Below are positions 2,440 through 28,555 of a stretch of 64,000 bases of DNA, in pieces (position 1 is the first letter of the stretch; the number at the start of each line of letters is the position of its first letter). A program made the position numbers and the translations under genes. This DNA comes from a virus. The stretch covers positions 23,418 through 87,417 of the IMG/VR virus record IMGVR_UViG_3300035670_000112, one strand, 5' to 3'. The notes under the pieces were generated by a model. The model did no database searches. It was given only the letters and a program-made list of their open reading frames with translations, and was not told the origin of the DNA.

Positions 2440-3524
2440 AAGACACAGTAAAGACAAAGAAATACCCAGTGATAACAACCCCTTTGAGAGGGAGGATACT
2501 GATACCTGGTGGAGTGAAAAGAAAGATCGATCAACTCCATAGGAGCATCGGTAATGTGGAGTGGGCAGGATTCATAACCTATGAGAAGACAGCAGGATCG
2601 ATGTCAGTACCCAATGAACTTGTTCTCAAGGTACTGGACATATATCCCATGTCAATAGGCACACATTCCTATGTGGAGGCTGATAATCATGCCGATGACA
2701 TGTTGGACCTGTGTGACCGTGTACCGAGTTTCATGGGGTCCAGATACGGACTTGTGCATACACACCATACGATGAACACCTTCTTCAGTGGAACGGACAT
2801 CGATGAACTGCATGACAACGTGGACAAGTATTCCTCATACCTGTCACTCATAGTGAACATGAAGGATGAGTATACCGCAAAGATCGTCAGTCTTGTGGAC
2901 GTATCACCTAGAATGGTATCCATAAAGGAGGAGGATGAGGAGACACGGAGTGTACAGATAGGTGACGACACGGTACAGATGCTCATGGTCGACCTTGATG
3001 TGTCCATTGAGAAGGAACATGAGGACGATCCTGTGATATCACTCAGGATAGAGGAGCTCAGAAAGAGGAACAGAGAGAAGGAGACGGACTCTCAGAGATC
3101 CGTATCACCTACCTCAGGGACTGTGAGGACATCTTCTCCCCCTGTTCAGACAAGGTTCCCTTTCGACACATTCGACATGCCTATGACACATCATTATTCC
3201 GTGAACAGGTTCAATGCTGAGGTATATCTGAAAAGACTTCTCAGTCTTGACGATACGGTAGGCAATGTGGATCTCTACTCACTCCTGTTGGAAGAAGCAA
3301 GGGATGCCAATGACTACCCTGACTATATCGATATCTACTACGGGGAGATCGCAGAGGAATGCTATAACATGGCAATAAAGATGGTCGGAGGTGAGAAGGC
3401 CGATGAACTCATAAAGCTTGCAGTGGAAAGACTTTCCGACTATGAGAAGGACCCCAATGTCAGCCCTGTGGTCGCCAATGTGAAGCTGATAATGTCGTCC
3501 ATACTCAATGTACCCTCACTATGA
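2436..3524 (+). CDS. JAB/JAMM metallopeptidase, deubiquitinase-like (PRTRC A-like or BilC-like)
   Basis: A 362-residue protein with a complete JAMM zinc site: an upstream glutamate (E42 in VEWAGFITYE), then H108-T-H110, seven residues, S118, two residues, D121, exactly the HxHx7SxxD signature. In ubiquitin-like systems such enzymes process the modifier precursor or remove it from targets. Residues from about 195 to 240 are low-complexity and probably a flexible linker to a helical C-terminal domain. It overlaps the E2-like gene upstream and the E1-like gene downstream by four bases each. PRTRC protein A also carries a JAB domain, which agrees with the operon. The metal site looks intact, so an active peptidase is likely; the substrate is inferred from neighbours. 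Confidence 0.82.
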   Translation: MKDTVKTKKYPVITTPLRGRILIPGGVKRKIDQLHRSIGNVEWAGFITYEKTAGSMSVPNELVLKVLDIYPMSIGTHSYVEADNHADDMLDLCDRVPSFMGSRYGLVHTHHTMNTFFSGTDIDELHDNVDKYSSYLSLIVNMKDEYTAKIVSLVDVSPRMVSIKEEDEETRSVQIGDDTVQMLMVDLDVSIEKEHEDDPVISLRIEELRKRNREKETDSQRSVSPTSGTVRTSSPPVQTRFPFDTFDMPMTHHYSVNRFNAEVYLKRLLSLDDTVGNVDLYSLLLEEARDANDYPDYIDIYYGEIAEECYNMAIKMVGGEKADELIKLAVERLSDYEKDPNVSPVVANVKLIMSSILNVPSL

Positions 3525-4195
3525 AGACAGCACACATAAGATTCAACAGTGTCGACTGGTACGGTATACCCAAGGAGATGACCGTAGGAGGTGCAGGTAC
3601 CATAGGAAGTTGGCTTACCCTTCTGTTGGCAAGGTCTGGTGACCACGACATCATACTCTATGATGACGATACTGTCAGTGAGGAGAACATGGCAGGACAA
3701 CTGTACGGCAGGTCGCATGTAGGCATGCCGAAGGTGGAAGCGATGAAGGATATTCTGAACGGACTTGTGGACATGTCTGGCAACATAAGGCTGGACATAT
3801 ACGGCAAGAGGATACAGGAGGGCACTTACGTGTCCCCTGTATGTTTCTCGTGCTTCGATAACATGAAGGCAAGGAAGGACATGTTCAACAACTGGATGAA
3901 GAGGGATGACAGGGAACTCTTCATAGACGGTAGGATGAGCATTGAGACCTATGAGGTCTACACCGTAAGGAAAGGACAGGAGAAGGAGTATATGGAGACA
4001 CTGTTCGATGACTCCGAGATACCTGATCAGATATGTTCGCTGAAGGCAACATCACATACAGGGGCACTCATTGCTGGTAGGATGATGAGCATGTTCACCA
4101 ATCATCTGGCGAACAGTGTCTCAGGAATGGACATCAGATCGGTACCATTCAGCTTCAGAGAGGATATGGAATATCACATGATAACAACAGTATAA
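3521..4195 (+). CDS. E1/ThiF-like adenylating enzyme (PRTRC ThiF-like or BilD-like)
   Basis: A 224-residue protein with a Rossmann nucleotide-binding start (G24-A-G26-T-I-G29), the acidic strand ILYDDDTVSEEN (residues 45-56), Q60, and the GMPKVEAM segment with K71, all hallmarks of E1/ThiF/MoeB adenylation domains. D113 in CFDNMKAR matches the conserved magnesium-binding aspartate. Cys172 in ICSLKATS, just before the final helix, is a candidate catalytic cysteine. It would adenylate the modifier C-terminus and pass it to the E2-like protein. It is short, with one domain and no separate cysteine domain, as in other minimal bacterial E1 enzymes. It is coupled to the JAMM gene (ATGA) and to the next gene (TAATG). 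Confidence 0.8.
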   Translation: MKTAHIRFNSVDWYGIPKEMTVGGAGTIGSWLTLLLARSGDHDIILYDDDTVSEENMAGQLYGRSHVGMPKVEAMKDILNGLVDMSGNIRLDIYGKRIQEGTYVSPVCFSCFDNMKARKDMFNNWMKRDDRELFIDGRMSIETYEVYTVRKGQEKEYMETLFDDSEIPDQICSLKATSHTGALIAGRMMSMFTNHLANSVSGMDIRSVPFSFREDMEYHMITTV

Positions 4196-8233: not shown

Positions 8234-8665
8234 ATGACAAGGGAGGATGCCGACTTCAACACGATGTTGATAAGAGAGGAAGTGAATGAGCTTCTGTCCG
8301 CACTGTCAACGAATAATGACCTTACAGAACTGTGCGATGCATATTTCGATGTGCTCTGGGTGGTCACCCAATCAGCAATGCTGAACGGGCTCAATATAAA
8401 CGACCTCTGCAGAGCGGGCTTTTACAGCAACATGTCAAAGTTCTGCAACACATACGAGGAGGCACTTGATACTGTGGAAGCCTACGCCAAGGGAGAACAT
8501 CCTGCAAAGTATGGTACACAGATCGAATGTAGGATAGACGAGAACAGGGATGGGAGTTTCACTGTAAAGAGAGCATCCGATTCCAAGATACTCAAGTCGA
8601 TCAATTTCAAAGAACCTGATTTTTCATTCATAGTACAGAGAGCAAAGGAACATGGGACAGTGTGA
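8234..8665 (+). CDS. MazG-like all-alpha NTP pyrophosphohydrolase
   Basis: A 143-residue protein with the metal-binding helices of the MazG/dUTPase-2 superfamily: E15-E16-x-x-E19 in LIREEVNELL and E32-x-x-D35...D39 in TELCDAYFDVLW. These enzymes hydrolyse (d)NTPs to monophosphates and pyrophosphate, here probably to tune the nucleotide pool or lower the host alarm nucleotide. The ATG at 8234 is preferred to one at 8111 because the upstream part of that frame overlaps the coding region of the previous gene. Residues from about 85 to the end form an extra C-terminal domain that I do not recognise. It overlaps the reductase gene by 14 bases. Confidence 0.68.
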   Translation: MTREDADFNTMLIREEVNELLSALSTNNDLTELCDAYFDVLWVVTQSAMLNGLNINDLCRAGFYSNMSKFCNTYEEALDTVEAYAKGEHPAKYGTQIECRIDENRDGSFTVKRASDSKILKSINFKEPDFSFIVQRAKEHGTV

Positions 8666-9212
8666 AGAGTACTTCAAAGGTGATGAGCTTGCAGTTTCAG
8701 TATGGCAGGGTAAATATGCTGCAGATGGGGAGATCACCCCTGATGACATGCATAGACGCATGGCAAAAGAGTTTGCAAGGATTGAAAAACAGTATTCTGA
8801 TTCTTCAGAACCCTGGGAAATAAGAGTTGTAAAGACTGAGAATCTGAGCAGATACGGAAAAGATAGAAAACCTCTTGTAGAAAGTGTGATATACGATCTG
8901 TTCAAGGATTTCAAGTACATAGTACCTCAGGGTTCCATTATGTACGGGCTTGGAAGGAATGATAAGTACATCTCATTGAGCAATTGCTTTGTCATTGATT
9001 CAGCAAAGGACAGTTATGGAGGCATCTTCAAGACCGAACAGGAGCAGATCCAATTGATGAAACGCAGAGGAGGTGTAGGTCATGATATCTCAAACTTACG
9101 TCCTGAAGGTACTGCAGTGAGCAATTCAGCGGGAACATCAACAGGAGTGGTCTCTTTCATGGAAAGATTCTCCAACGCTACAAGAGAGGTTGCTCAAGCA
9201 GGAAGAAGAGGT
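8652..9212 (+). CDS. nrdJ: Class II (B12-dependent) ribonucleotide reductase, exon 1
   Basis: Exon 1 encodes residues 1-187 of a reductase interrupted by a group I intron. It carries the N-terminal helical start (LAVSVWQGKYA), the substrate-site segment LSNCFVIDS with the first redox cysteine, and the glycine-rich GGVGHDISNLRP region, ending in AQAGRRG. Without splicing, translation would stop two codons later (AAA TAA inside the intron). Joining base 9212 to 9579 restores GRRG-ALMLSI, the continuous sequence expected for the family, giving a protein of 864 residues. The enzyme makes deoxynucleotides for phage replication. It overlaps the pyrophosphohydrolase gene by 14 bases. Confidence 0.88.
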
Positions 9213-9578
9213 AAATAAAAATGTGCCTCAAAACTATGTGAACCTATAAATATAGGGTGTCTGAGGAGATTCAGGCTAACGGTGGAAACTATAATTTTGC
9301 CAAAAAATTATAATAATACCGTGCTAAGCATTTGTATATTTATGTTTTTGTTAGAAGGAAGAAGAAATAATCCTATTCCAAAAGGTAAAAGAAAGGGATT
9401 GTTCTTTGAGTATACAAATGAAAGTGTAACGACTATCGAACGGGTAACTGTCACAGTTGACAGTGAGTAACCAAGTAGAGTACATTTAAGGTGAAATTCC
9501 TTAAGTGGAAGCGCATAGGTGAGTAGAAACGTAGTTCTACTTGAAGATATAGTCTAAACGTGAAGAAATTCACTTTTG
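9213..9578 (+). ncRNA. Self-splicing group I intron in nrdJ
   Basis: This is a 366-nt insertion between codons of the reductase. The 5' exon ends GAGGU (9208-9212) and pairs with GCCUC (9225-9229), giving a P1 helix with the diagnostic U-G pair at the splice site. AAUGU (9220-9224) pairs with the first bases of exon 2, GCAUU (9579-9583), as P10. The last intron base is G (9578). The element AAGATATAGTC (9544-9554) matches the conserved S/P7 strand, with GACTAT upstream at about 9430 as its likely partner. No homing endonuclease frame is present, so it appears to be a mini-intron that splices but cannot home by itself. Confidence 0.9.
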
Positions 9579-11612
9579 GCATTAATGTTAAGTATTGATA
9601 TCAATCATCCTGATGTTGCCAAGTTCGCAACGATCAAATCGGATCTTACAAAAGTTACAGGAGCAAATATATCAATAAGGGTCAATGATGAGTTCATGAA
9701 AGCTGTTGAGAATGATGAAGATTATATTCTCAGATGGCCCTGTGATAAAGAAATAGATGAGGAAATTGCTTTTAGACACCCATATAATGAAAGTATAATA
9801 GGCGAGTGGGGAAGTGTCACAAAGAAAATTAAAGCAAAAGAACTTTGGGATACTATCATTGAACAGGCAAGAAATAATGCTGAACCAGGTGTAATGTTCT
9901 GGGATAATGTGATGAAAGGCTCTCCTGACAGTGTATATGAGGAATACAGACCTGTCAGCAGTAATCCCTGTGGTGAACAGTTCCTTCAACCGTACGATAG
10001 TTGTAGACTGATGTGTCTGAATCTGTTCTCGTTTGTAAATGATCCATTCACTGATGATGCAGAGATCGATTATGATAAACTGTATCAGGTGGCCTATGAG
10101 CAACAGAGACTGATGGACGATCTTGTTGATCTTGAGATAGAGCATGTCGACCGTATCATTGAGAAGATAGAGAATGACCCACAGGATGACCTTATCAAGG
10201 GTACTGAACTTCAGCTTTGGAAGAACATCAGACAGACTGCACAGAGTGGTAGACGTACAGGCAGTGGTATAACTGCTCTTGGAGACATGCTTGCTGCAAT
10301 AGGAGTAAAATATGATTCTGATGAAGGTCTTGAGGTAGTTGAGAAAGTGATGTCGACCAAGATGAGAGGTGAGTTGGACTGTACGATCGATCTTGCCATT
10401 CTGAGAGGAAAGATTGAGGGATGGGATCCTAAAAAGGAATTCGGTACAGTAGTGGGTTATAAGGACACGAGATCAGTGGATATAAAGACTATAGGGAATG
10501 ATTTCTACCTTTCATTGATCAGAACCTTCCCTGAACAGGCTTCCCGTATGATCGATCACGGACGGAGGAACATCTCCTGGAGTACGATTGCTCCGACAGG
10601 CAGTGTAAGTATCCTTACAGGAACTTCAAGTGGTTGTGAGCCATTGTTCATGCCTTTCTATATGAGAAGGAAGAAGGTCAATCCTGACAATACTGATGTA
10701 CGGGTGGATTTCGTTGATCAGAATGGGGACTCATGGCAGGAATTTGCAGTATTGCATCCTAAATTCAAGGATTGGTGCATCACAGCATTCGGATTGAATG
10801 AGACTGCACAGGAAAGATTGAATGATAAGGATACTTTACAGAATCTTTTCACGAAGTCTCCATGGTACGGTGCAACTGCAAATGATATCGATTGGAAAAA
10901 ACGAGTGGAGATGCAAGCTGTGTTGCAAAAATATACTACCAATGCGATCAGTACTACACTTAACTTGCCTGAGGATACTACTACAGAGACCGTGAGTGAG
11001 ATATATCTGCACTCTTGGAAACAAGGTCTCAAAGGACAGACGGTTTATAGAGAAGGGTCACGTAGCGGAGTACTGGTGAATATAGATAACAAGCAGCAAA
11101 AGACATCATTTGAGTATCATGATGCTCCTAAACGTCCTTTATGTCTGCCTGTGGACATTCACACAACGGTTTCCAAAGGAGTCAAATGGAATGTCATTGT
11201 CGGACTGTTCGATGGTAGACCATATGAAGTGTTCGCAGTACCTTACTTCACCAATGAGACATCTCTGGAACTATGTAAGGTCAAAAAAGGAAGATACGAC
11301 CTGCTCAGGAACGGTGAAACATACAGTGAGGACATAACCTCTCAGATCACTGATGAGCAGGATGTACTGACGCGAATGGTAAGTACAGCATTGCGACACG
11401 GAGCTGATATCACATTCATCGTAGAACAGTTGAACAAGTCCCATGGTGATATCACCAGCTTCAGTAAAGCTATTGCAAGAACTCTAAAGAAATACATAGA
11501 TGAGAGGAAGATGGTATCAAGAGCAACCTGCACTGAATGTGGAAGTAATAACCTGGTTTTTGAAGAGGGTTGCCTTTCATGTAAGGACTGCGGTTCGTCC
11601 AAATGTGGGTAG
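9579..11612 (+). CDS. nrdJ: Class II (B12-dependent) ribonucleotide reductase, exon 2
   Basis: Exon 2 encodes the remaining 677 residues. It contains SNPCGEQ, with the thiyl-radical cysteine and neighbouring glutamate, followed by SCRLMCLNLF, then APTGSVSILTGTSSGCEP and the C-terminal barrel. The C-terminus ends in a four-cysteine ribbon (CTECGSNN...CLSCKDCGSSKCG), typical of adenosylcobalamin-dependent NrdJ. There is no ATP cone at the N-terminus of the joined protein. The open frame appears to begin at a TTG (9576), but that codon belongs to the intron end. Bacteroidota phages often carry their own reductase; a B12-type enzyme would work without oxygen, fitting a gut host. Confidence 0.9.
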   Translation, partial: ALMLSIDINHPDVAKFATIKSDLTKVTGANISIRVNDEFMKAVENDEDYILRWPCDKEIDEEIAFRHPYNESIIGEWGSVTKKIKAKELWDTIIEQARNNAEPGVMFWDNVMKGSPDSVYEEYRPVSSNPCGEQFLQPYDSCRLMCLNLFSFVNDPFTDDAEIDYDKLYQVAYEQQRLMDDLVDLEIEHVDRIIEKIENDPQDDLIKGTELQLWKNIRQTAQSGRRTGSGITALGDMLAAIGVKYDSDEGLEVVEKVMSTKMRGELDCTIDLAILRGKIEGWDPKKEFGTVVGYKDTRSVDIKTIGNDFYLSLIRTFPEQASRMIDHGRRNISWSTIAPTGSVSILTGTSSGCEPLFMPFYMRRKKVNPDNTDVRVDFVDQNGDSWQEFAVLHPKFKDWCITAFGLNETAQERLNDKDTLQNLFTKSPWYGATANDIDWKKRVEMQAVLQKYTTNAISTTLNLPEDTTTETVSEIYLHSWKQGLKGQTVYREGSRSGVLVNIDNKQQKTSFEYHDAPKRPLCLPVDIHTTVSKGVKWNVIVGLFDGRPYEVFAVPYFTNETSLELCKVKKGRYDLLRNGETYSEDITSQITDEQDVLTRMVSTALRHGADITFIVEQLNKSHGDITSFSKAIARTLKKYIDERKMVSRATCTECGSNNLVFEEGCLSCKDCGSSKCG

Positions 11613-15461: not shown

Positions 15462-18400
15462 TTAAAGTGATATGAAGTATTTCAATCTTTCCTCTGGATA
15501 GAACCAGTCTGTGACAGTCTCATACAATGGTATCTGTCTGTTTGCCCATACCTGTAGTTTGAGTGTTCCCTTGTTCCTTCCAGCCTTGTATTCCTTGAAG
15601 AAGTCATCATCGCTGAATATTGCAGAAGGATCGATCGTTTTGGTTATGCTCAGTATGGAGTCCAACTGATCCAATGCTGCAGAGGGTGACTGTACGATGG
15701 CAGTGATCTCAGTGGCATTCCATACAGGAATGAATATACCGAGGTCCGTGGAGAATCTCTGTGCCTGATATGCTGCCATATTGAGGAACCAGTTGTCATC
15801 ATCGTCCCCTGCAAGTCCTGTGAGTATACCTGCAAACACGGTTGCTGCAAGGAAATATCCCACTTCGATCATACTGCGTCTCATATTGGCCTGTTGCATA
15901 GGGGTCATCCTGTCATATATTTCCTTGGATGTAGCAAGACTGAACTGTCCAGCCTTTATCTCATTCCAGAGTGCAGTCATGAACCTTGCTCCCAGAGTAT
16001 AGTACATTCCTTCGATCTCCTCATTCAGAGTGTAGCTTTTGTAAGGTGATTCGAACCTTCTGTTTATGCCTGAGGGTATCCATTTTCTGAAGAGCATTGC
16101 TGCCCTTCCCAGCGCATATCTCTGTATCGCAGATCGGTCATTCGTATTGTAGATACCGTGCAGTTTCTGATTGACCGCCTGTATCTTCAGTGAGAAGTTG
16201 TCCATGTCTATATCGGTCACTTCCGATCCGTCAAGGTTCTTCACACCATCTATGAGCTCAAGTCTGCCGTTCTCCACAACAAGTGCATCATACAGTGATA
16301 TCTCATTGCCGTCTGGTCCCATGAGTTTTCTATTGTATGCAAGTGCAAGTGCCATACGGCTCTGCATCTGATGTTCCCCAAGATGGTTGAGAAGGAAGAA
16401 TGATGACTCTTTGAACATCCTTCCCCATTTTCCCCTGTCAGCATTCACGGATGACACCCTTGATTCGAAATCCTGAAGTGCATCGAACCTTTCAAGGAAC
16501 AGTCTCAGTTTGTTCGATGAGGTCAGATTGCCTGAATCTCCCATGAGTCCTGCGATACCTTCCCTTCCTGCCTGCCAGTATGCCTTACGTGCCTTTGAAA
16601 GGTCCTCGTGGGTCACATACTGTTTTGCAAATGCCTCCTCACGTACAAGGGCATTTCCCAAGGTGACGTTGGAAAGACCTGCGAATATGTTGAGTCCCAG
16701 TTTATTGATGGCAGTATACTTGGTGAGGGCATCTATTGCCTTCGATGAGGGGACATGACGGTCATTCTTGGTCTCACCATAATAGATCATGTCGATATAG
16801 GATCTGTATCTATCGTATATGTTGCCTCCTTCCCTACTCTCTGGTGTCCCTTTGAGTGATGCGAACTTGCTGAGAAGACCTGCATCCGCCACCTTTCTGC
16901 TTCTCATCACATGGTCACCTATCTCTATCACACTCTGAATATGTGTCAGATTCCTGTGTCTGTTCATCATGTTGGCATACAGTACCAGTGATGATGTCGC
17001 ATCCAAGGAAAGATCATTGGTATCCTTCAGTCGTGTAGAGTAGTATATCGGAACACTCTTTATCACCTTACCAGTCACATCGAAATGCTTGAGACCGTAG
17101 GCGGTATCGTCCTCAACCTTTGTGAGTGTCTCAACAAGTGATTCCTTTACAGCCTTCAATCCTCCCTCTGAAAGGGTCCTTTCCACAAGATCCTTCCGTA
17201 TCTGAGGGGCCAACGGACTGTTCCTGTAAGTATCATTCATATGGGAGTTCATCCTTGACCTTCTGTCCATGTAACCCTCATAGTAACGTTTCTTTGCAGC
17301 ACTGTTCATTATATCATCGAACTGTGGATTCGAATATATGGAGGCCTTCGGTACCGCAAATTCCTTTCTGAATCTGACATTACCGTTCATATCCTCCCAT
17401 ATACGGTCGTTCTTCCATCTGTTCAAAGAGTTCATGGCACGTTTGACCCCCTTTGCAATGTGCAGATCGTTCTTTATAAGATATGTCTGCCATGTGGTAG
17501 GGTGTGCAGATCTCACCTCATAGTACCTGTCGATGTCCTTCTGGAATTTAAGCTCCTGTTCGATGAATCTGCGCTCCTTGTCGGCAATGATGTTCTTGAA
17601 ATCAGGATTGAGATCATTGTTCCTCTCATACCATTCATTCTCTGATTCAATGTACTCCTGATCGATGTTTATGTCACGTTTCCTTATTCTGAGACGTTCA
17701 ATAGGATCCTCTGGAAGACCCAGTCGTCTGTGAAGCTCCTCATAGAACAGCTTTTTGCTCTCGTTGTACTGTGACATGTTGTAACGGGTCACAAGATTGC
17801 CTGTAGGCTTTCCTGTTGAATCCCTTTCGTACATCCATGCGGTATCTGCCACTCCTGATGCCTTCAGTTCATCATCAAGACGGAAGAGGTATTGCATATC
17901 ATCGTATGTCTGTCTCTGTGCGGCCAGTATCCTGTCCTTTACAAGTCTGTCAGTCAGTGCAAGCAGTTGATCTGGACTCTCTGCGAGAGATACAAGCTCC
18001 TTGTTGTACCAGTTGATGTCAGCAGATATGAAGGAGGGATCGGTGATCTTCATCAGTTCCTCAAGTTCCCTCTCAACTGCAGCATCCCTCTCTTCAGGGG
18101 TCATACGCTTATCCTTGTAATATGCCTCCAGAAAAGGTTTCATGGTGTACACATAAATGCTCCTTGAATAGTAGGAATAGTCATTGTCCATCTGTGTTAT
18201 ACCTGAATTGATGTTCTCCAGTGCCTCGATAAGGGCAACATGATGTTGAAGGTCTGCCTCCTGTGCACCAGATCTCTTCTGTGTCCTCATGTCGGAACGG
18301 GTCTCAACGAGAAGTGAGGATACCAGTGGTCTGTAGATGTGAAGATATTTGTACATGTCATTCACCACATCGGCAAATTGAGCAAGCTCATCATCGTACA

Positions 18401-20879
18401 TCCCATTCGCAAATGCACCTCTCATATGGTCAAGTCTGTTCAATATGCCCTCCGCTTCATCCTCAGCATGTGCAATGAACTTGATGATGCCCTGAGTGAC
18501 CCTTCCCTGCTTGAGTTTGGGATCCTTCTCAGTAAGGTCCTTTTCAATGGCCCTTATGAGTTCCTTCTCCTTGACATAGTATGGACCAGTACCTTTTATC
18601 TTCATTGCCTGAACCCTTGTCTTGAGTCCGTTCAATGCTGTCTCGAGTTCCTTGGTCATACCATCGAGCATCCTTGAGTTCCTGAACATCTTTCTGTCTA
18701 TCTGAAAGAACTGCTGGTCCTCTCCAGCCTGTATACGTTCCTTTATGGCAGCAGGATTCTCCATCACACTCTTTGATATGGCATCCAAACTTTCACGGAT
18801 CCTCCTTTCCTTCAATGCACTTCCCACTGAGAACATTCCGATGAAGGCATTCAATATCCTTTTCAGCAATGTCTTCCATTTAGGGGTCGCATCTATGTTG
18901 AACTCTGAGATCATGGAGTCCGTGAGCATCTTGCCTACGATCTCCATTCTCACTCTTTTCCTGTCATTGCCATAGGCCTCCATATATTGTTCGGAGTACT
19001 TTTTCCAGTAATTGGTCTCCTCGATCAATGATAACGCCTCCACTATACGTGGATCATCCTTCATCGCATATACTATGAAGTGGCTGACCTCCTCTGTAAG
19101 GGTGTCATATCTCTGGGAACCTTCTTTCACCGCTATCACCTTTCTCATCATGTCGGCAACTGCTGATGCGGTCAATTCCTTTCCATACTTCTTCTCATAC
19201 CATTTTCTGTACTCCTCATAGTTGACCAATGATATTCCGAGTTCTGACATTATGGAAAGCATCCTATTGTCAAGTGCAGTGTCCACAGGACGTGATCCCT
19301 CCTCCTGCTGGAACAATGTTGAACGGGGATCTATCTTTATGTAGAATATCTCCCTTCCCTTCTCCCCGAACTTGTTGGCCCTATGTACAGTGACAGCATT
19401 GTACCCCAGTTGACGGTTCACTCTGCCCACCTTGTTGACAGCATCCACATAACCGTTCTTTGTGATCATCAACCCTTCATTGTATCTCTTTATACCGTAT
19501 GATCTCAGAAGCTCATTCTCGATATCTGCCACTGTATTGAGAGAAGGTTCTTGAAAGAATACAGGAGTTTGACCTCTTTCAGTAAATCTTTTAAATCCTT
19601 CTATGTCTTGTTTACTTCCTAATATGTGAATATTATCAGCATCTAAAATAACTAATTGAGCATTATCATTTATAAATAATTCTTTACCTTGAAAAAAAGA
19701 ATCTATTTTTGTTTCTTCAATAAAGTCTTTTATAAAATTAGTATTATAGTTTGAAGCTAAAAATAATCTTTGATAAATACTATTTACTGTATTTTTACCA
19801 TATATATTAGGTTTAATTTCTTTCTTTTCAATTTCTTTAATTATGTCATTATAACTTTCTTCGTCAATATATTTTTTAAACTTATCAACTATACTCAAAG
19901 ATTTTTCTTCAGAAATGGTTTCTGCAAATGTTTGTGAAATTGTATTTTTAACATTTACAATTGCAGATATTACTGTTGGAGAAGTACCTTGTTTAAATTC
20001 CCCTTTTAAATACCTTTCTACTTTTTGTCTGTTATTTAAAAAATAATGACCTATACTAATTCTATCACCTGTAAAAATGTTACTAAAATTAAATTTATCA
20101 AACTTGCCATGTGGAGTACCATGATAAACAATATCCTTTACTTTACTATCAGGAAATATAGTATCTAAATATTGAGAATAAGCTTGTAGTGCTTGTTGTT
20201 TTTGTTGTGGAGTTATTTGAGTAGCTGTCGTTAATTCTTGTTGTGCTAATTTTAATCCTTCTAAAAATGCCTTATCTATTAATTCATTAGTATTATGAGT
20301 AAAGTTTTCGTATTGTAAAAGTTTTTTAGTTGCTTCTGAATTAGGATTTTGTTTAAAACTTTCTACTACAAGTTTTTTCATTAAACCTAAGCTATCAGCA
20401 GCTTTCATTTCTGCAACAGTTCCTTTACCTCTTATTTTGCTACCATGTCCACCTATTTTATTATAAGCATCATAAGTAGCCTTATCAAAACTTCCAGATT
20501 TATTAGATTGATAAGCATGTTCCACGCTACCATATTCTTTGCCTTCCCAATTAAATTTTCTTGGCGCTAAGTTAGACAATATACGAGTTGAAGAATTAGA
20601 CTCAGCTTGCCCCCAATAAACATTTATAGTTCCTTTAGTCTGTACTGTATTATCAAACCCTAAAGCTTCATATACTTGATTAGCTAATTCAGGATTAGAA
20701 TCAAATAGTTCTTGTACTCCTTCCTTTACTCCCATTAACTCACTTGCTGATGGAAATTGATCGGAATTGTTTCTTTGTTGCCATAATGCAACTTCGGCCC
20801 TCAATATTGCAGGGTTTATTCCAGTTGATCTCTGAAGTGCTATGAATTCAGGATGTGAAGTGTTGATACAGATCGACAT
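15462..20879 (-). CDS. Giant virion protein with NADAR and ADP-ribosyltransferase-like domains
   Basis: A 1,805-residue protein, the last large gene of the virion operon and likely ejected into the host. Residues 1-50 resemble the N-terminus of other crAss giant proteins (HPEFIALQ...WQQ...FPSASELMG). Residues 86-215 look like a NADAR/YbiA domain: ILSNLAPRKF, SVEHAYQSNK (118-127), KFKQNP-like ESFKQNP, and FTHNTN. Residues 248-422 look like an ADP-ribosyltransferase of polyvalent-protein type: VYHGT (251-255), IGHYFLNN (276-283) and LVILDADNIHILG (409-421); a clear catalytic Glu is not evident. EEVSH (596-600) may be a degenerate zincin. The rest is helical, with a hydrophobic segment near residue 1,700. 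Both enzyme-like domains lie in a block of much lower GC. Confidence 0.72.
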   Translation of the reverse strand: MSICINTSHPEFIALQRSTGINPAILRAEVALWQQRNNSDQFPSASELMGVKEGVQELFDSNPELANQVYEALGFDNTVQTKGTINVYWGQAESNSSTRILSNLAPRKFNWEGKEYGSVEHAYQSNKSGSFDKATYDAYNKIGGHGSKIRGKGTVAEMKAADSLGLMKKLVVESFKQNPNSEATKKLLQYENFTHNTNELIDKAFLEGLKLAQQELTTATQITPQQKQQALQAYSQYLDTIFPDSKVKDIVYHGTPHGKFDKFNFSNIFTGDRISIGHYFLNNRQKVERYLKGEFKQGTSPTVISAIVNVKNTISQTFAETISEEKSLSIVDKFKKYIDEESYNDIIKEIEKKEIKPNIYGKNTVNSIYQRLFLASNYNTNFIKDFIEETKIDSFFQGKELFINDNAQLVILDADNIHILGSKQDIEGFKRFTERGQTPVFFQEPSLNTVADIENELLRSYGIKRYNEGLMITKNGYVDAVNKVGRVNRQLGYNAVTVHRANKFGEKGREIFYIKIDPRSTLFQQEEGSRPVDTALDNRMLSIMSELGISLVNYEEYRKWYEKKYGKELTASAVADMMRKVIAVKEGSQRYDTLTEEVSHFIVYAMKDDPRIVEALSLIEETNYWKKYSEQYMEAYGNDRKRVRMEIVGKMLTDSMISEFNIDATPKWKTLLKRILNAFIGMFSVGSALKERRIRESLDAISKSVMENPAAIKERIQAGEDQQFFQIDRKMFRNSRMLDGMTKELETALNGLKTRVQAMKIKGTGPYYVKEKELIRAIEKDLTEKDPKLKQGRVTQGIIKFIAHAEDEAEGILNRLDHMRGAFANGMYDDELAQFADVVNDMYKYLHIYRPLVSSLLVETRSDMRTQKRSGAQEADLQHHVALIEALENINSGITQMDNDYSYYSRSIYVYTMKPFLEAYYKDKRMTPEERDAAVERELEELMKITDPSFISADINWYNKELVSLAESPDQLLALTDRLVKDRILAAQRQTYDDMQYLFRLDDELKASGVADTAWMYERDSTGKPTGNLVTRYNMSQYNESKKLFYEELHRRLGLPEDPIERLRIRKRDINIDQEYIESENEWYERNNDLNPDFKNIIADKERRFIEQELKFQKDIDRYYEVRSAHPTTWQTYLIKNDLHIAKGVKRAMNSLNRWKNDRIWEDMNGNVRFRKEFAVPKASIYSNPQFDDIMNSAAKKRYYEGYMDRRSRMNSHMNDTYRNSPLAPQIRKDLVERTLSEGGLKAVKESLVETLTKVEDDTAYGLKHFDVTGKVIKSVPIYYSTRLKDTNDLSLDATSSLVLYANMMNRHRNLTHIQSVIEIGDHVMRSRKVADAGLLSKFASLKGTPESREGGNIYDRYRSYIDMIYYGETKNDRHVPSSKAIDALTKYTAINKLGLNIFAGLSNVTLGNALVREEAFAKQYVTHEDLSKARKAYWQAGREGIAGLMGDSGNLTSSNKLRLFLERFDALQDFESRVSSVNADRGKWGRMFKESSFFLLNHLGEHQMQSRMALALAYNRKLMGPDGNEISLYDALVVENGRLELIDGVKNLDGSEVTDIDMDNFSLKIQAVNQKLHGIYNTNDRSAIQRYALGRAAMLFRKWIPSGINRRFESPYKSYTLNEEIEGMYYTLGARFMTALWNEIKAGQFSLATSKEIYDRMTPMQQANMRRSMIEVGYFLAATVFAGILTGLAGDDDDNWFLNMAAYQAQRFSTDLGIFIPVWNATEITAIVQSPSAALDQLDSILSITKTIDPSAIFSDDDFFKEYKAGRNKGTLKLQVWANRQIPLYETVTDWFYPEERLKYFISL
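19545..20790 (-). other. AT-rich inserted block inside the giant virion protein gene
   Basis: Within one uninterrupted reading frame, roughly these bases are strikingly AT-rich compared with the sequence on either side and the rest of the minus arm. The block covers residues about 30-445, which is exactly the NADAR and ADP-ribosyltransferase-like region. This indicates recent acquisition of both domains as one unit. Boundaries were judged by eye, within about 50 bases. Confidence 0.75.
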
Positions 20880-23800
20880 TACTGACAGGTTCTTTTCTGG
20901 TTACGCATCATTTCCTTGGTCTCATCTGGAAGAGCATTGAACTCCTCCTGAGTTATGTTGTTCTCTTCCATTATCATCATATCGATGTCTTCATTGGATA
21001 CAGAAGTGAGGGTCACATCTGCACTGACCTTCTTTGTTGTTACAGGAACCTTACTCTCCTTCAGTTCCATGATCTTTTCGAACATGCTCTTCACGTTCTT
21101 CCCTGAACCTATACGTTCCCTCAACTGTTGAAGTTGTTCTGGACTCAATCCCTGTATGCTCTTGAACAGAGGATGTGATATCATCGCTCCTTCCAAAGGT
21201 GCTATACTGTCAATGTCGAATCCTGGAAGTATATCGGATATTGTCAATACCGCCTCTGCCGCATCTACAGGTTTCACTGCTCTATCCTTTATCCTTGTAG
21301 GGGTGGCAGAGGGTTTTCTGGTGGAAACTATCTGAGTATATGTCATGGTATCGGACATTGCATTGTCATAATTGAACTCAAGGAACTCATTGTTTGAACC
21401 CAACAGAGGTACTTCCCTGTATATGGCATCATCCCTTTCGATAGAGTGGAACACCATCAGTGCCGACCTCATCTGTCCTTTCGTCTTCAATACCGTCCTT
21501 ATGAACTCCAACGGTTGCTTCTCAGTGTTATTGACCTTGTTCAGAGGTACCTTCACATATGTCACTCCCTCACTTACCATGAAGATACTGTCCGCATTAC
21601 TGGTATCGAAGTACTTGATGAATGGAAGACTGCGGTACATGTTCCTTATTATCTGAGAGGATATCTCCTTGGATATATTCACGGATCTCTCATCATCGAA
21701 CATGTTCCTATTGAACTGATTCTCCATATACTGTGTGAAGTATATGCCGTTATCGTCCTTCAATTCTGCCCAGTACATGGTAGGCAGAATGTCACTCAGC
21801 TTGCTCGGAGAGGTCACGAACCCTGTTGCAAATATGGAATATGCTGCAATGTCGTTCGCAAGTGATGATACTTTGGGATCCACATCACGCAACATTGAAA
21901 GGAACTCCATCTTGATAGACTGCATCTGTGTCGCATCGATACCTGTACGGTTCATCCTTATCACCTTCATACCTGATACATTCTCTGAGGGGATGACGTT
22001 CAGATACTTCAACAGTGGGATATAGGGGCTTTCAGGGTTCTCATTCATGAAAGTTGTAATGGCAGTCGGGGTATCATTGATCACCCGTTGGAACTCAGAT
22101 GCTCTGAAAGGTCCGAATGATGATGCCAGTGCTGATGATATCGCATAGTGCATAAGGTTGACCGTCTCTGGCTGTATCCTCTGTCCCAATGGAAGGGAGG
22201 CCTTCATAGCATTCTTGACCGTATGATAGATGGATTCACCATATCTGTCGGTGTAAGGTATGCCAGTTGAATTGTATATGTCTGCCAAGGATGCCTCAAG
22301 TCCTCTCTCTCTGAATGCTGCAGACCATCTGATAGGGTTGGACTCCACCATTGAAAGGAGTTCTCTCACCCCGTAAACGATGCCTAACTCCTCAGCATTG
22401 AGTATGGTATCGACATCATCGAGTTTACTGAGCGTATGTGCAACTGTCGGACCAGCGGCATTCTTGATGGAATCGTATCTCATTGCACGTGTCATAGGTG
22501 CAACAACACCTGTCGACACCTCTGCAACCCTTTTGAGCAACCTGTAGACGGCAAGTGAATTGACAAGTTCCAGATCGGTCATTGCCGATACATCCTTTTC
22601 ACCCATCTTCACAAGGTCCATTATGCTTCCTGTGCGTGTAGTAGGATCGAACTTCAATGCCTTTGTGCTCAAGTAGTTCACCATTTCATCATATGCAGCA
22701 CGTCCCCGTCTTCTGATATACTCATCAGTGATATCATCCATACCTGAAAGGTCGAGTCTGTCCACGGAACGGGCTCCTTTGGTAGCTCTGATGACCTGTG
22801 GAGTATTGAAGAACAGTACAGATGCCTCAAGGCCGAAACCCATTCTGACAAGGGTGGCTATCATATCAGCGGTCACCATGGTTATATTGAGGAATGATGC
22901 CACAGGATCCTTTCCGTTATCTACCGCAGCCGCAAGGAACTCCTTCAGCTTCACAAGGTCATCGAATGTGGTACCTTCGTCCTTTCCACTCAGACTTATC
23001 TTCTCCATCCCGTTGAATTTCAAAGGATATTTGAGTGTTACGTTACCTTGCATGACAAGTGCCTGATTGGACACATGGTTTGCAAATATACCGATAAGTC
23101 CGTTACCCGTCATATTCCTTTCAAATACTTCCCTTGAGGTTGAGTTCAACAGAGGGTTCAGAGTGTCGGTACCCATGGAATCCTTCTCGGTCTTTTTCGG
23201 GGAAACCTCCTTTACAAGTGCCTTGAGCGTCTCAAAGCCTCCAGGAGTGGTTATCTCCTTTGCAGTCCTTGCATCTGAGAGTACAGAGAATGCAATGTCC
23301 AATTTCAGATTGTCCCTTGATGCCTTTGTTTCCATCCCTGATGGTACCTTTCTGAGACTGTACTTTCTGAATGTACCCGTATCCTCATCAAAGGCAATTC
23401 CTTCCTTATTGGCAAATTCCCTACGTGAACGGAGTTCATCGAAGTCTGGGATCTCCTTCCTTACGATATCCCTCTTGAGTTTGGAAGACCATTGCATGGT
23501 CGATATGTATGACTGGAATCTCTCCTCAGCACCTTCCACCTCTGAACTGTACTCCTCTATGTTGTAAAGGATACCGTACAGTTTATCGATGTCAAAGTCA
23601 AGACCTGCTATCTTGGTGGCCTCCTCTGGAAGGATGATCTGCCCCCCTACACCCTGTGGAAGGAAACCTATGATCTTGATATGGAACATCGAATACTTGT
23701 GCTCTGTAGGTATACGGTAGAAGACTGCTTTCAGTATATCAGGGTCCACTCCCTCTATCTTCGATATGTCTATGATACCATTCTTGTCGGCATAACGTTC

Positions 23801-26800
23801 CAACGAACTCAATGTGACTGGAAGGATCGCTTCAAAATACTCTATGGATCTACCGTCCTCGCTCCATTTTATCTCAGGCTTCCTATAACCTTTCTCGGAG
23901 CCCTTTTCAAAACCGTATGAGGTGGCATTGTACAATGATGCACCTGCTCCCTTGTTGGTCTTCTGTTTGGTGACCCTGTTCTTGAAGAAGGAATTCATCA
24001 TGGTCTCCACATCATAGGCTATGCTCGGATGCCACAATGGAAGTACCGTAGTGTTCTCAGATCTTACGAGTTCACCATCCTTCTCCACATAGTATCCCTG
24101 ATGGGCGGTTGCCCAATCGAGTGCCGTGAGAAGATCATCAGGCTTCTCATTCTCTATGGCCTGCTGTCTCAATGCCTCGACTATCTTCGTATTGTCTGGA
24201 TTACCGTCAGCATCAGTGAACAATTTCTTCAGTTCATCGTATGATTCCTGTACGTTACGGTACAGTGCCTCATTGTAAAGTCTGAGTATCTCCGCACCCT
24301 CTGTAGGGACCCCGTTCAACATATAGGTATGAAAAGGATCGACATTCTCCACGACAAGTTTACGGTACTGTGTACCTTCCAGTATGTTGGTATCAAGATG
24401 GTGTTCAGGGGTAAGTTGCTGTCTACGGTAATCTGCATTCCTGAATCTATGGACATCCTCTTTTACAGCAGCTTCTATTGAATCCACTGCCTTGAACTTT
24501 CCTACCTTGACTGCAGAGGTGAACATGATTGAGTCTGTGATCCTCTTACTGGGATCGTATGTCCATGTTCCGTCAGCTTTGAACACGTATCCGAACTTTG
24601 ACATCATCGCCTCGAGTTTCGGACTTCCTACTGCCATTGCAGGGGTGATCAGCGTTTCTGAGTTCTTATGCTGTACAGGATTTATTCTTACGTGACCAGT
24701 CACTGGATCTATTGTCCTTGAATGGAGGAACTGGAACGGTTTTATAGGTTGATGTATGTGTCTGCTACCTATGTGTCGCATAGGATCACCGTTCACAAGT
24801 CCTGTATAGAATTCATATTTCTCCTCATTGAGTCCGTTGAATCCCAATTCCAACTGCATTGCACGTATGGGATCTATGATGGTGGCAGCATCGGTCTCAT
24901 TGAGTTCAGAGAATGCCTTTACAATACTTTCCCTGTCAGGATTGTCCCTGTGTATCCTTTCAATGTTCCTTATACCGTCAGACACCACATCTGAAATGTC
25001 AGCAGGGTCGTTCACATACAGTACACTGTACTCAGGGGCTATCCTTACGATATTCCCGTCCCTTGATGTGAACATGTTGGACTGATGGGCATTCATGTAA
25101 TCACCAGGTGACCAGATCTCCTTGATACGTTTGAATACATCGGTATAGTCCACCCTGCTGTCCCTGCTCTTATAGAATGCAGGGTCACCTCCGAAGGTGA
25201 ACAGGGTCTGAAGGTTCATAGCCAATGAATTGTGGAGGTATGACGATATGTTACGGTCGAATGATTCAGGGTCCATGAACCTTGAATCTATCAGACCAGT
25301 GTTGTCGAAGATGGTACCGTTCTCCTCTGCAAGGATCCTCTCAGTGTACAGGGACTTCAGTTCACTCTCTATGATCTTCGGTATCTCAGCCCCGACCGCA
25401 TCTATCACCTGTTGGTCATCCTTCAGGTCCTTGATATTCTCATTGAGCGATCTGAAAACCTGAAAGTAGAGTCCATTGAGAAGCATGTTGACTGGAATGT
25501 CATTCAACTGCTCAGGTATGCGTGCCTTCTCACTGTATGATTTTTTGCTGTCCTTCTGATCCTTCAACCATGTGTTATACTCCTGCTTGACGGGTTGTAT
25601 CCTCGATCTCAACCATTTTATCCTGTTCCACTCCTGAAGTGCAGAATCGATTATCGCCTGTCTGGACTCATCGATGTCCATCTTTTTGATCTTGATGAGT
25701 GCAGCAGATGTGGAATCCGATAGTATGGGCATAAGGAATATGCCGTTCGATTTAGGCGAAGTGGCATCATCGGCAATATTGAAATATGCGTTGATCCTGA
25801 ATGCCTCGAGTTCCTGTCCTGTGAGTTCTGAGTATTCCGTTCCCTTCCTCCTCTTCTCAGATTTGAGAGAATCCATCACACCCAGCTCCATCGACATTGC
25901 AACATCTCTGTCCATCATCATTCTGAAGAACGGAGAGGTTGAATAGAACGGATCCTCCATGTATGAATCTATGGTGGCCATTCTTGTGGCATTGTCAACT
26001 GTGGAGATGTTGCCTCTGAGATTCTGCATGAACCTTGATTGCAGGAGTGAGTATATCATCTCACCTGCACCGCTTCTGAAAGAGTGCTGATATGCCTGAG
26101 GAAAGACCTCCTGATAGACCTTGAGAATGGAATTGAGTGCCTTATCATTGTCAATGGTGCTTACGAACGGATTGTTACCCGTCTGTATCCTCTTCATATA
26201 GTATATGATGTTGGGAGCGAATGATTCAACGAATCTTCTCTTACCCCCAGGAATGGCATCCTGATCGTCAGGTATGGAGAACATCATGTTTATCTCCCTT
26301 TTGGTCAGAGGTAGATTCAGGAGTTTCATAAGATTGTATACCTTCTGAGCGTCCTCCCTTGATATGGGACCTTCCTTCTCCAATGGATCCCTGTTGATGT
26401 TCCTCTTGTAATCATCCCTCAATCTCTCAAATTCAGATATGCGTTCACTCAGATCCCCTGATACCTTCTCAGTGGATGGATCGTAGAACTTTGAATCATA
26501 GAAGGACTGCAACCATTGTTTCCTCATGTCACGTGTCATGTCACGATGGTTCGCATAGAATATCTTTGACCTTCCCTTCTCATTGCTCACTATGAAGAAT
26601 GGAGTGAAGGTACGTTGGGCAACATTGACCCAGAACTCTGTTATCACATGAGGGTCCTGCGTCATTGCGGTCGTTATGACCTTGTAACCTGGATTGAGCT
26701 TCACAAGCTCATCCAGTCTTGACAGCATGGTATCGACATTGGGAGAACCAGATATCTTCGATGCTATCGTATTGTAAACATTTGACGGATTCTCGAAAAC

Positions 26801-28555
26801 GGTCATCCCTCCGAACTTGACACCTTTCAACGGTATCATGGAGAACATCGCCTTCGCCTTCTGAGAGAATTTCTCCCTGCCTGAAAGGAACTTGTCCTTT
26901 ACAGCCCATGATTCCACCTGTTCCTCATCTTCCTCCATTATGCCCACCTCATCGATGGCATCAGAGGTCTTTGAGGCATCAGACATGTCATAGGTCATGT
27001 TTATACCGTAGTACTTGAGGTATCTTGCCGCCTTTACGGACAGTTTCCTCATTGTAAGGGTACCGTCCGCATTGACAGTCCCTATGGAGTTGAGTGTGCG
27101 TTCAAGTACCTTTCTGTCACTCTCATTCCTCTTGAGTGCCATGGAGTTCTGAATGACCCTGTGAACATTGGCATACAGTCCATTCAATGACAATGCAGGG
27201 TTTCTGGTCCTCTTCCCTCTCTTTATGATCTCCTTTATCAGATCCGCATCTGAAAGGCTCTCCATACCGTAAAGACTTCTGTACTTGGGAAGTACGGTAT
27301 TTATGAGGATACCGTTCATCAGACGTTTCGCATACTCCTCCTCCCTTATGTTGAGATACGTGGTACTGTCCACAGACCTGAATCTTGTGACATCCCTTTT
27401 GAACTTCACTCCTCCGAATCTCTTCACGATGCCCTTATTGTACAGACCTCTGCTCACTCTGTACATGTAATCGTTCATGGACGCAGCACCTTTGATACCA
27501 GTGCGTTCAGCAAGGATGCTTATGATATGCCACAGTCTTCTGAAAAGATCGAGGACATTCTCTGGAAGACCCCTCTCTTCCTTTGCCTGTGACAGTTGAT
27601 ATTCCATGAAACGGTCTGCCCAGTATTCCTCAATACCTATGGCACCTTTTGCAAATCTCTCACCTGCATCTATTATGGAAGCACGTTCCACATCATTCAA
27701 GAGTGTATGGAATACAACGTGAAACGCCTCGTGATAGAGTGTACCGGTCTTTGCCTGCTGTGATATGAATACCGCTGAGTTCCTGAAAAGTCCCCATAGT
27801 TCTGGACTTGCCTTACCTGCAATGGATCTCAGATCAGCAAGTACTGTCAATGGTACACCTGGATAATTCTCCTTGAACCACTGTGTCTCCTTCTGTTCAT
27901 CCCACAGTTCATAGCTTCCGTCAGTATCAATCACCTCACGTGAACGTTCATCGATGTCCTCATCGAACTCCGATATCGTATCATTGAAATCAGGTATGTC
28001 ATCCGATGGAGTGGTCACATCGATGGTCGGACCAGTTTGTTCAAACGGTATCTCAGGTTCACCCTTTCTCTTCAATATGGCTCTCCCTACAGGACCTTCT
28101 GAGGATACCTCCTTTCCGTTGGATGCACCTTCAGGTGTTATGTTTATGATCCTTCCGTCCTCTGTAAGTGCATACACCTCACCATTGAATTCGAATTTCT
28201 CATAGCTCACATACTTTGATTTCAGATGTGCCTTGTTGATGAGTCTGATGTCCTTTACAGGGTCGAGTACTCTGCCGTTGTTGGTGAAGGACACCTCACC
28301 GTTCTCCATATTGACAGTGACATTGAACTTCTGTGTACCATCCTTGTCAATGGTCAGTCTCTTCACATTCTTTGAAGGTGCTGCCAGAGGAACGTTCACT
28401 GCAACAGGCTTGATCTGCCTTGCAGGCATGTCCTTTATAAGGGACCTCTTTATCCTTCCTGAGGATGCAAGTGTTTCCAATTCACCATCAAGAAGGAGTT
28501 TTGCAAACTCCTCAAAACTGTATCTTCTACCTCCGTAACTTATTACACAGCTCAT
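20879..28555 (-). CDS. Virion RNA polymerase of crAss-like phages with N-terminal zincin
   Basis: A 2,558-residue protein. D1653-F-D-I-D1657 within AGLDFDIDKLYG is the metal-binding signature of the crAss-like virion RNA polymerase, a single-chain relative of two-barrel RNA polymerases. PEEATKIAGL just before it fits the same family. Near the N-terminus H275-E-A-F-H279, followed by EEYWADRF, is an intact zinc-metallopeptidase motif that may process virion proteins. In this family the polymerase is ejected with the DNA and transcribes early phage genes. The gene overlaps the ferritin-like gene by four bases and abuts the next giant gene (shared base 20879). Confidence 0.9.
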   Translation of the reverse strand: MSCVISYGGRRYSFEEFAKLLLDGELETLASSGRIKRSLIKDMPARQIKPVAVNVPLAAPSKNVKRLTIDKDGTQKFNVTVNMENGEVSFTNNGRVLDPVKDIRLINKAHLKSKYVSYEKFEFNGEVYALTEDGRIINITPEGASNGKEVSSEGPVGRAILKRKGEPEIPFEQTGPTIDVTTPSDDIPDFNDTISEFDEDIDERSREVIDTDGSYELWDEQKETQWFKENYPGVPLTVLADLRSIAGKASPELWGLFRNSAVFISQQAKTGTLYHEAFHVVFHTLLNDVERASIIDAGERFAKGAIGIEEYWADRFMEYQLSQAKEERGLPENVLDLFRRLWHIISILAERTGIKGAASMNDYMYRVSRGLYNKGIVKRFGGVKFKRDVTRFRSVDSTTYLNIREEEYAKRLMNGILINTVLPKYRSLYGMESLSDADLIKEIIKRGKRTRNPALSLNGLYANVHRVIQNSMALKRNESDRKVLERTLNSIGTVNADGTLTMRKLSVKAARYLKYYGINMTYDMSDASKTSDAIDEVGIMEEDEEQVESWAVKDKFLSGREKFSQKAKAMFSMIPLKGVKFGGMTVFENPSNVYNTIASKISGSPNVDTMLSRLDELVKLNPGYKVITTAMTQDPHVITEFWVNVAQRTFTPFFIVSNEKGRSKIFYANHRDMTRDMRKQWLQSFYDSKFYDPSTEKVSGDLSERISEFERLRDDYKRNINRDPLEKEGPISREDAQKVYNLMKLLNLPLTKREINMMFSIPDDQDAIPGGKRRFVESFAPNIIYYMKRIQTGNNPFVSTIDNDKALNSILKVYQEVFPQAYQHSFRSGAGEMIYSLLQSRFMQNLRGNISTVDNATRMATIDSYMEDPFYSTSPFFRMMMDRDVAMSMELGVMDSLKSEKRRKGTEYSELTGQELEAFRINAYFNIADDATSPKSNGIFLMPILSDSTSAALIKIKKMDIDESRQAIIDSALQEWNRIKWLRSRIQPVKQEYNTWLKDQKDSKKSYSEKARIPEQLNDIPVNMLLNGLYFQVFRSLNENIKDLKDDQQVIDAVGAEIPKIIESELKSLYTERILAEENGTIFDNTGLIDSRFMDPESFDRNISSYLHNSLAMNLQTLFTFGGDPAFYKSRDSRVDYTDVFKRIKEIWSPGDYMNAHQSNMFTSRDGNIVRIAPEYSVLYVNDPADISDVVSDGIRNIERIHRDNPDRESIVKAFSELNETDAATIIDPIRAMQLELGFNGLNEEKYEFYTGLVNGDPMRHIGSRHIHQPIKPFQFLHSRTIDPVTGHVRINPVQHKNSETLITPAMAVGSPKLEAMMSKFGYVFKADGTWTYDPSKRITDSIMFTSAVKVGKFKAVDSIEAAVKEDVHRFRNADYRRQQLTPEHHLDTNILEGTQYRKLVVENVDPFHTYMLNGVPTEGAEILRLYNEALYRNVQESYDELKKLFTDADGNPDNTKIVEALRQQAIENEKPDDLLTALDWATAHQGYYVEKDGELVRSENTTVLPLWHPSIAYDVETMMNSFFKNRVTKQKTNKGAGASLYNATSYGFEKGSEKGYRKPEIKWSEDGRSIEYFEAILPVTLSSLERYADKNGIIDISKIEGVDPDILKAVFYRIPTEHKYSMFHIKIIGFLPQGVGGQIILPEEATKIAGLDFDIDKLYGILYNIEEYSSEVEGAEERFQSYISTMQWSSKLKRDIVRKEIPDFDELRSRREFANKEGIAFDEDTGTFRKYSLRKVPSGMETKASRDNLKLDIAFSVLSDARTAKEITTPGGFETLKALVKEVSPKKTEKDSMGTDTLNPLLNSTSREVFERNMTGNGLIGIFANHVSNQALVMQGNVTLKYPLKFNGMEKISLSGKDEGTTFDDLVKLKEFLAAAVDNGKDPVASFLNITMVTADMIATLVRMGFGLEASVLFFNTPQVIRATKGARSVDRLDLSGMDDITDEYIRRRGRAAYDEMVNYLSTKALKFDPTTRTGSIMDLVKMGEKDVSAMTDLELVNSLAVYRLLKRVAEVSTGVVAPMTRAMRYDSIKNAAGPTVAHTLSKLDDVDTILNAEELGIVYGVRELLSMVESNPIRWSAAFRERGLEASLADIYNSTGIPYTDRYGESIYHTVKNAMKASLPLGQRIQPETVNLMHYAISSALASSFGPFRASEFQRVINDTPTAITTFMNENPESPYIPLLKYLNVIPSENVSGMKVIRMNRTGIDATQMQSIKMEFLSMLRDVDPKVSSLANDIAAYSIFATGFVTSPSKLSDILPTMYWAELKDDNGIYFTQYMENQFNRNMFDDERSVNISKEISSQIIRNMYRSLPFIKYFDTSNADSIFMVSEGVTYVKVPLNKVNNTEKQPLEFIRTVLKTKGQMRSALMVFHSIERDDAIYREVPLLGSNNEFLEFNYDNAMSDTMTYTQIVSTRKPSATPTRIKDRAVKPVDAAEAVLTISDILPGFDIDSIAPLEGAMISHPLFKSIQGLSPEQLQQLRERIGSGKNVKSMFEKIMELKESKVPVTTKKVSADVTLTSVSNEDIDMMIMEENNITQEEFNALPDETKEMMRNQKRTCQ

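Follow-up and report, generated by a model that had tools for sequence, protein, structure and literature searches.

The question raised by this locus is how a NADAR domain and an ADP-ribosyltransferase (ART)-like domain came to sit near the N-terminus of a giant phage protein, and what they may do there. The DNA analysed, referred to as the window, is a stretch of 64,000 nt taken from an IMG/VR virus record of 87.4 kb (bases 23418-87417). It encodes a crAss MCP (phrog_11589, 2.8e-111) and portal (phrog_6547, 2e-113). The giant protein is encoded by an uninterrupted ORF of 1,805 aa with an ATG start (15462..20879, on the minus strand, as are all features of this protein given below), in agreement with the single reading frame of 1,805 codons noted in a preliminary description of this DNA. 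Its residues 519-1799 align to gp49 of crAss001 with 28-29% identity (3e-90, tblastn). The upstream neighbour (20879..28555, minus strand) is a gp50-type virion RNA polymerase protein of 2,558 aa, in the same position and order as gp50-gp49 in crAss001. The homology of the body and the gp50-gp49 order place the ORF among the Crassvirales gp49-type cargo proteins, and on these alignments it is an ortholog of the crAss001 virion cargo protein gp49. The two proteins share the body, the gene order and an N-terminal Cys, whereas crAss001 gp49 is only 1,349 aa long and has no match to the payload block of the window protein. Both gp49 and gp50 were detected by mass spectrometry in crAss001 virions (PMC10172136), therefore we infer packaging of the window protein by homology, and it is probably ejected into the host together with the DNA. 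The earlier placing of the two domains as an insertion in a virion protein holds through this ortholog.

An early cysteine was observed as a separate feature of these proteins. In a survey of loci L001-L108, L149 and L150 and the window ORFs 15462-20879 and 20879-28555, 81% of the giant ORFs (at least 800 aa; 58 distinct starts) have a Cys among residues 2-8, compared with 11% of ORFs of 120-500 aa. It is present in crAss001 gp49 (MAKKC) and gp50 (MSKRC) and absent from gp44-gp47, and is possibly a signature of this giant cargo class.

The window protein is built from two constant parts with a foreign block between them. The constant N-terminal module, residues 1-51 (MSICINTSHPEF...FPSASEL; 20727..20879), shares residues 4-48 with the sister locus L149 (49% identity) and with N-termini in L011, L015 and L019. 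The constant gp49 body, residues 437-1805 (15462..19571), is 53-59% identical to L149 and 38% identical to a second sister, L150. The GC content falls to 0.20-0.36 across about 19500-20850 against about 0.45 in the flanks, and GC3 is 0.31 for residues 1-48, 0.12 for 49-82, 0.14 for 83-219, 0.08 for 220-436, 0.51 for 437-560 and 0.53 for the remainder. Both measures confirm the AT-rich block of the preliminary description, but its borders at 19545-20790 were set about 30-60 nt too far out on either side. The left border lies at gene nt ~154 (window 20726), where an 88.5% nucleotide match to L107 begins; this independent contig matches the window over the first joint (joint A, described below) and the NADAR domain, and its sequence upstream is unrelated. 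The right border lies at gene nt ~1308 (window 19572), and homology to the sisters restarts at residue 438. Residues ~52-436 (window 19572-20726) are thus an imported block.

Close relatives were obtained by a search with the MCP; a search for them with residues 431-943 found none. The sister L149, with an MCP 89% identical to that of the window, retains window residues 4-48 and 438-1805, and its slot holds an unrelated payload of ~557 aa, with no Pfam match, in place of the NADAR-ART block. In L150, from a phage with an MCP 82% identical to that of the window, the block is absent. The allele lacking the block, for which the preliminary description had proposed to check sister phages, thus exists, and another sister has a different payload. 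The gp49 body itself has a GC3 of 0.23 in L149 (G062) and of 0.53 in the window, a large composition shift between close relatives.

Three joints, conserved at the DNA level, delimit the domains of the block. Joint A (EGVQELFDSNPELANQVYEALGFDN, gene nt 154-231, 20649..20726) precedes the NADAR domain, and its DNA is conserved in about 50 loci. Joint B (TQITPQQKQQALQAYSQYLDTIFPDSKVKDIVYHGT, gene nt 658-765, 20115..20222) lies between the NADAR and the ART-like domain, its end overlapping ART strand 1. Joint C with its end (NIHILGSKQDIEGFKRF..., gene nt 1246-1308, 19572..19634) closes the block, and the body homology follows from residue 438. Joints B and C were recognised by DNA islands and by a codon test. 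Comparison of the gene with loci collected by peptide patterns revealed DNA islands at about nt 151-225 (A), 661-765 (B) and 1246-1290 (C), mostly 75-97% identical to many loci. The depth of DNA-similar loci is zero before joint A and in the ART core and 0-2 after joint C, and the NADAR domain forms its own plateau between A and B because loci were also fetched with the NADAR. The depth at A and B is inflated, since part of the loci had been gathered with DNA patterns of the joints; the codon test avoids this by using only the peptide-pattern loci, with the expectation taken from the codon usage of each locus. At identical residues the same codon is used at rates of 0.86 (A), 0.81 (B) and 0.75 (C) against expected 0.53, 0.56 and 0.56, whereas regions of these proteins that served as controls, with less than 30% amino acid identity, gave 0.53 against 0.545 expected.

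The joints are spread among distant phages. In 41 IMG/VR stretches, joint A occurs in a nearly exact form of 33 nt. The carriers are mostly crAss-like, the crAss MCP family being matched in 25 of 42 records and most of the unmatched ones being fragments below 66 kb; their MCPs are 24-40% identical to that of the window or not alignable. Among 84,980 bacterial and archaeal genomes, joint A occurs in two short contigs that carry giant ORFs with joint motifs and are probably mis-binned phage. Each joint has a single copy in the window genome, by which a reading as dispersed repeats was rejected. A search of the joints for hairpins of recombinase or attC-like sites found folding no better than in shuffled sequences (z -0.45, -0.14 and -0.07).

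The intervals between the joints carry various payloads. Elsewhere the A-B interval holds a GNAT domain (L006), an AAA_33/zeta-type kinase (L014) or a NADAR and, with weaker support, a ParB-like (L009) or an SprT/MPTase-like domain (L028); several further domains are unassigned, and for many payloads the Pfam match is weak or absent. Some cassettes are shared almost from joint to joint: L012 and L019 have 926 nt in common at 87%, from 11 nt before A through the end of B, L018 and L022 are 90% identical over a stretch of 568 nt running from A to B, and L014 and L016 are 89% identical over 419 nt running from B to C. Among the 42 alignment ends of all non-close pairs, 17 lie at most 35 nt from a joint edge against 9% expected, a count in which the shared-cassette pairs are partly dependent, L012 and L018 (used in two pairs) being related phages. 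Tandem arrangements were also observed, with two ART units each closed by joint C in L008 (6425-11488) and joints in the order B-A-B-C within one protein in L014 (3-5804).

The joints might instead be ordinary protein elements, such as inter-domain linkers, ART edges or processing sites, which spread with the domains and have no role in exchange; the likeness of their DNA would then be a trace of recent spread and nothing more. Their amino acid identity is high, and metallopeptidase processing of polyvalent proteins has been proposed (PMC5512222). Protein constraint explains part of the conservation of joints B and C, since they overlap ART strands, B the first and C the last. However, synonymous positions are conserved above the codon-usage expectation and the shared cassettes end at joints, and this explanation is weakened most by joint A, whose DNA is conserved although it is flanked by unrelated sequence on both sides. 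We consider it rather unlikely.

We propose that residues ~52-436 are a recombination-fed payload cassette occupying a swap slot close to the N-terminal end of the gp49-type cargo protein, which we regard as likely. That the slot is one in which payloads are swapped with the joints as exchange points appears, from the sequence comparisons, a shade likelier still. Even between distant crAss-like phages the joint DNA is so alike that, in mixed infections, recombination of the homologous or annealing type could swap the intervening payload in frame. The A-B part (NADAR) and the B-C part (ART-PolyVal-like) would both have come recently from an AT-rich relative. The cargo protein would then be packaged, as in crAss001, and ejected along with the genome, whereupon the NADAR might hydrolyse ADP-ribose adducts or NAD-derived signals of host defence and the ART might modify host factors. 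A Sak4-like annealing protein is among the products of the window genome, and for annealing recombinases of phages short and diverged homology is sufficient (PMC3945230). We infer recombination as the route of exchange from how the sequences are distributed. The payload of L149 is not flanked by joints A, B or C, therefore that replacement need not have used them. What the preliminary description had missed is the payload slot itself, whose edges are conserved in their DNA and of which the block is one filling.

A broader idea, which we put forward tentatively and rate at somewhat less than even, is that crAss-like phages draw on a common pool of effector domains for the RNA-polymerase-linked cargo that they eject, and that a few DNA-conserved in-frame joints keep these domains interchangeable even across very distant phages. 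The NADAR-ART block would be one filling of such a natural plug-in system, which would supply payloads for counter-defence to be injected. The proposed exchange would give phages whose genomes can hardly be aligned a concrete and testable route to renew, in frame, the enzymes injected at the onset of infection. As the joints are short and easily recognised, a scan for them should uncover many further effectors and counter-defence enzymes that uncultured crAss-like phages inject; the breakpoints can be checked in existing metagenomes.

Related systems have been described. The polyvalent proteins of phages and conjugative elements of Iyer et al. 2017 (PMC5512222) are giant virion-injected proteins combining ART, GNAT, ParB, metallopeptidase and other domains; some are fused to virion RNA polymerase, and recombinational cassettes are suggested for one locus. 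The window protein resembles them in uniting disparate domains, a NADAR, an ART-like domain and the gp49 body, in a single frame and a single giant polypeptide, whereas that paper mentions neither NADAR nor crAss, and its accessible text describes neither joints with conserved DNA nor a fixed slot for payloads. In the packaged NAD/ADP-ribose systems of Iyer et al. 2022 (PMC9503650), ARTs and NADARs are proposed to be packaged in the virion and to act early; that paper does not mention crAss and its NADARs are typically standalone, whereas the window NADAR is in tandem with an ART-like domain in RNA-polymerase-linked cargo. Short conserved flanks of variable modules, proposed to serve homologous exchange, are known from the boundary sequences of mosaic phages (PMC3029335) and from the glycine-rich motifs of T-even gp38 (Tetart 1998, as cited in PMC12529663). 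The joints resemble boundary sequences, with DNA conserved at module edges and unrelated sequence beyond. These precedents concern whole genes or receptor-binding segments, unlike the in-frame enzymatic payloads of probably ejected proteins across very distant phages here. ART and NADAR in injected proteins are thus an already published theme (PMC9503650, PMC5512222), whereas the slot with DNA-conserved joints in crAss-like cargo proteins appears to be new; literature searches for these joints found no description of them.

The NADAR domain (residues 83-217, 20229..20633) was assigned by profile, fold and motif evidence. Its region matches PHROG 1017 (3.5e-7), and the Pfam NADAR family PF08719 gave an E value of 0.008 and 16.9 bits, under the gathering cut-off of 35.1. 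A score below the cut-off is not defining for the fold, and the domain is a divergent compact NADAR member. The AlphaFold2 model built from 19 sequences has a pLDDT of 77.7; its top PDB match (VIA) is 8bau, a Phytophthora NADAR-ADP-ribose complex (Z 10.0, rmsd 3.7, 127 aligned), followed by E. coli YbiA (2b3w, Z 9.3), the third match reaching only 3.8. The only two high-Z matches are thus NADARs, and on this model the assignment, already made in the preliminary description, is solid. The motifs on which that description relied are present, at residues 117 (GSVEHAYQSNK), 193 (FTHNTN), 250 (IVYHGT) and 276 (IGHYFLNN). Glu120 and Lys127 of GSVEHAYQSNK are seven residues apart, the same spacing as the published E43/K50 pair; they are nearly invariant among 18 relatives and align with T4 gp30.3. 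His195 (FTHNT) is invariant among the relatives, consistent with the use of a histidine by gp30.3-type phage NADARs; in this column of the MAFFT alignment T4 has a lysine, with the His of LKHS a few columns off, and the T4 register was set by eye. T4 gp30.3, a phage-type NADAR, shares the LSN-A and E..K motifs and the catalytic His type, but it is a standalone protein of low overall identity, whereas the window domain is compact and lies inside a giant cargo. A comparison of the NADAR alignment with gp30.3 by hhalign gave only a local match of 32 residues (E 0.011), phmmer and profile searches of PDB by sequence gave nothing useful, and neither the NADAR nor the ART block had a tblastn match in 50,697 INPHARED phages. 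NADAR domains were also found outside joints in other giant proteins (L001, L003, L004, L089, L090 and others), therefore the domain also travels by other routes. In L005 (6878-9532) the NADAR itself is split in frame by about 100 aa of foreign sequence, a nested insertion.

The NADAR probably acts on ADP-ribosyl substrates. The preliminary description had gone further in suggesting that a NADAR delivered by the virion could reverse DNA ADP-ribosylation of the DarT type and the ART could modify host proteins at the same time, so that the phage would be armed before any of its genes is expressed. This is compatible with the NADAR fold with Glu120, Lys127 and His195 in place, with gp49 as a virion protein in crAss001 and with the removal of guanine ADP-ribose in vitro by a phage NADAR (PMC11125620). 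However, in the same study the tested phage-type NADAR gave no rescue from DarT1 toxicity in cells, and DarT2 thymidine adducts were untouched by every NADAR tested. In addition, Iyer et al. favour small ADP-ribose derivatives as the main substrates of phage NADARs (PMC9503650). DarT is thus disfavoured, and we regard it as unlikely to be the main target; the scheme of pre-expression arming as a whole is equally doubtful. If it enters the host along with the genome, the NADAR could take ADP-ribose off guanine or consume NAD-derived defence molecules.

The ART-like domain has its core at residues 250-415 (19635..20132), recognised by profile and alignment. A Pfam search with the ART region after VYHGT alone gave no match. 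The joint-trimmed window core scored 35.7 against a profile of the neighbours' ART cores, compared with a maximum of 17.0 among 60 shuffles. In addition, the positional counterparts in L006, L008, L009, L010, L012 and L018, bounded by the same joints, match ART-PolyVal (PF18760, Tox-ART-HYD2 clade) above the gathering cut-off. By alignment, the histidine of strand 1 is His253 (VYHGT) and the tyrosine of strand 2 is Tyr279 (GHYF); the candidate acid of strand 5 is Asp393 (KIDSFF), matched by eye to YDSLL and NDSII of relatives. The profile and the positional homologs bear out the earlier ART call, less firmly than for the NADAR. The structure model is poor, with a pLDDT of 58 and no informative Foldseek match, therefore the ART activity is uncertain, and we take an active and an inactive enzyme to be about equally probable. 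T4 Alt modifies host proteins, and the window ART could act likewise.

The block might also be a decaying passenger that has lost the ART acid and whose NADAR at most binds ADP-ribose. The expected ART strand (NAQLVIL) has no clear acid, the ART model is poor, and neither the tryptophan nor the second arginine of the classical site is obviously matched in the compact NADAR. On the other hand, the block contains no frameshift or stop, and the NADAR is 59-81% identical to its relatives, with the catalytic positions invariant or nearly so. Decay is therefore improbable, more so than the DarT scheme. An assembly chimera, a low-GC contig fused into a 45% GC genome, would fit the sharp GC change but is rejected as extremely improbable, since the frame is open through 1,805 codons, both borders coincide with domain joints, the match of the independent contig L107 is 88.5% and not 100%, and L149 has a different payload in the same slot.

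Other genes of the window were noted in passing. The large subunit of ribonucleotide reductase (8652-11612) is in two pieces, 8652-9218 and 9576-11612, and positions 9459-9575 match group I introns (E 3.3e-6, under the Rfam gathering threshold), which suggests an intron in the gap. At 2436-4195, a weakly JAB-like gene adjoins a ThiF-family gene.
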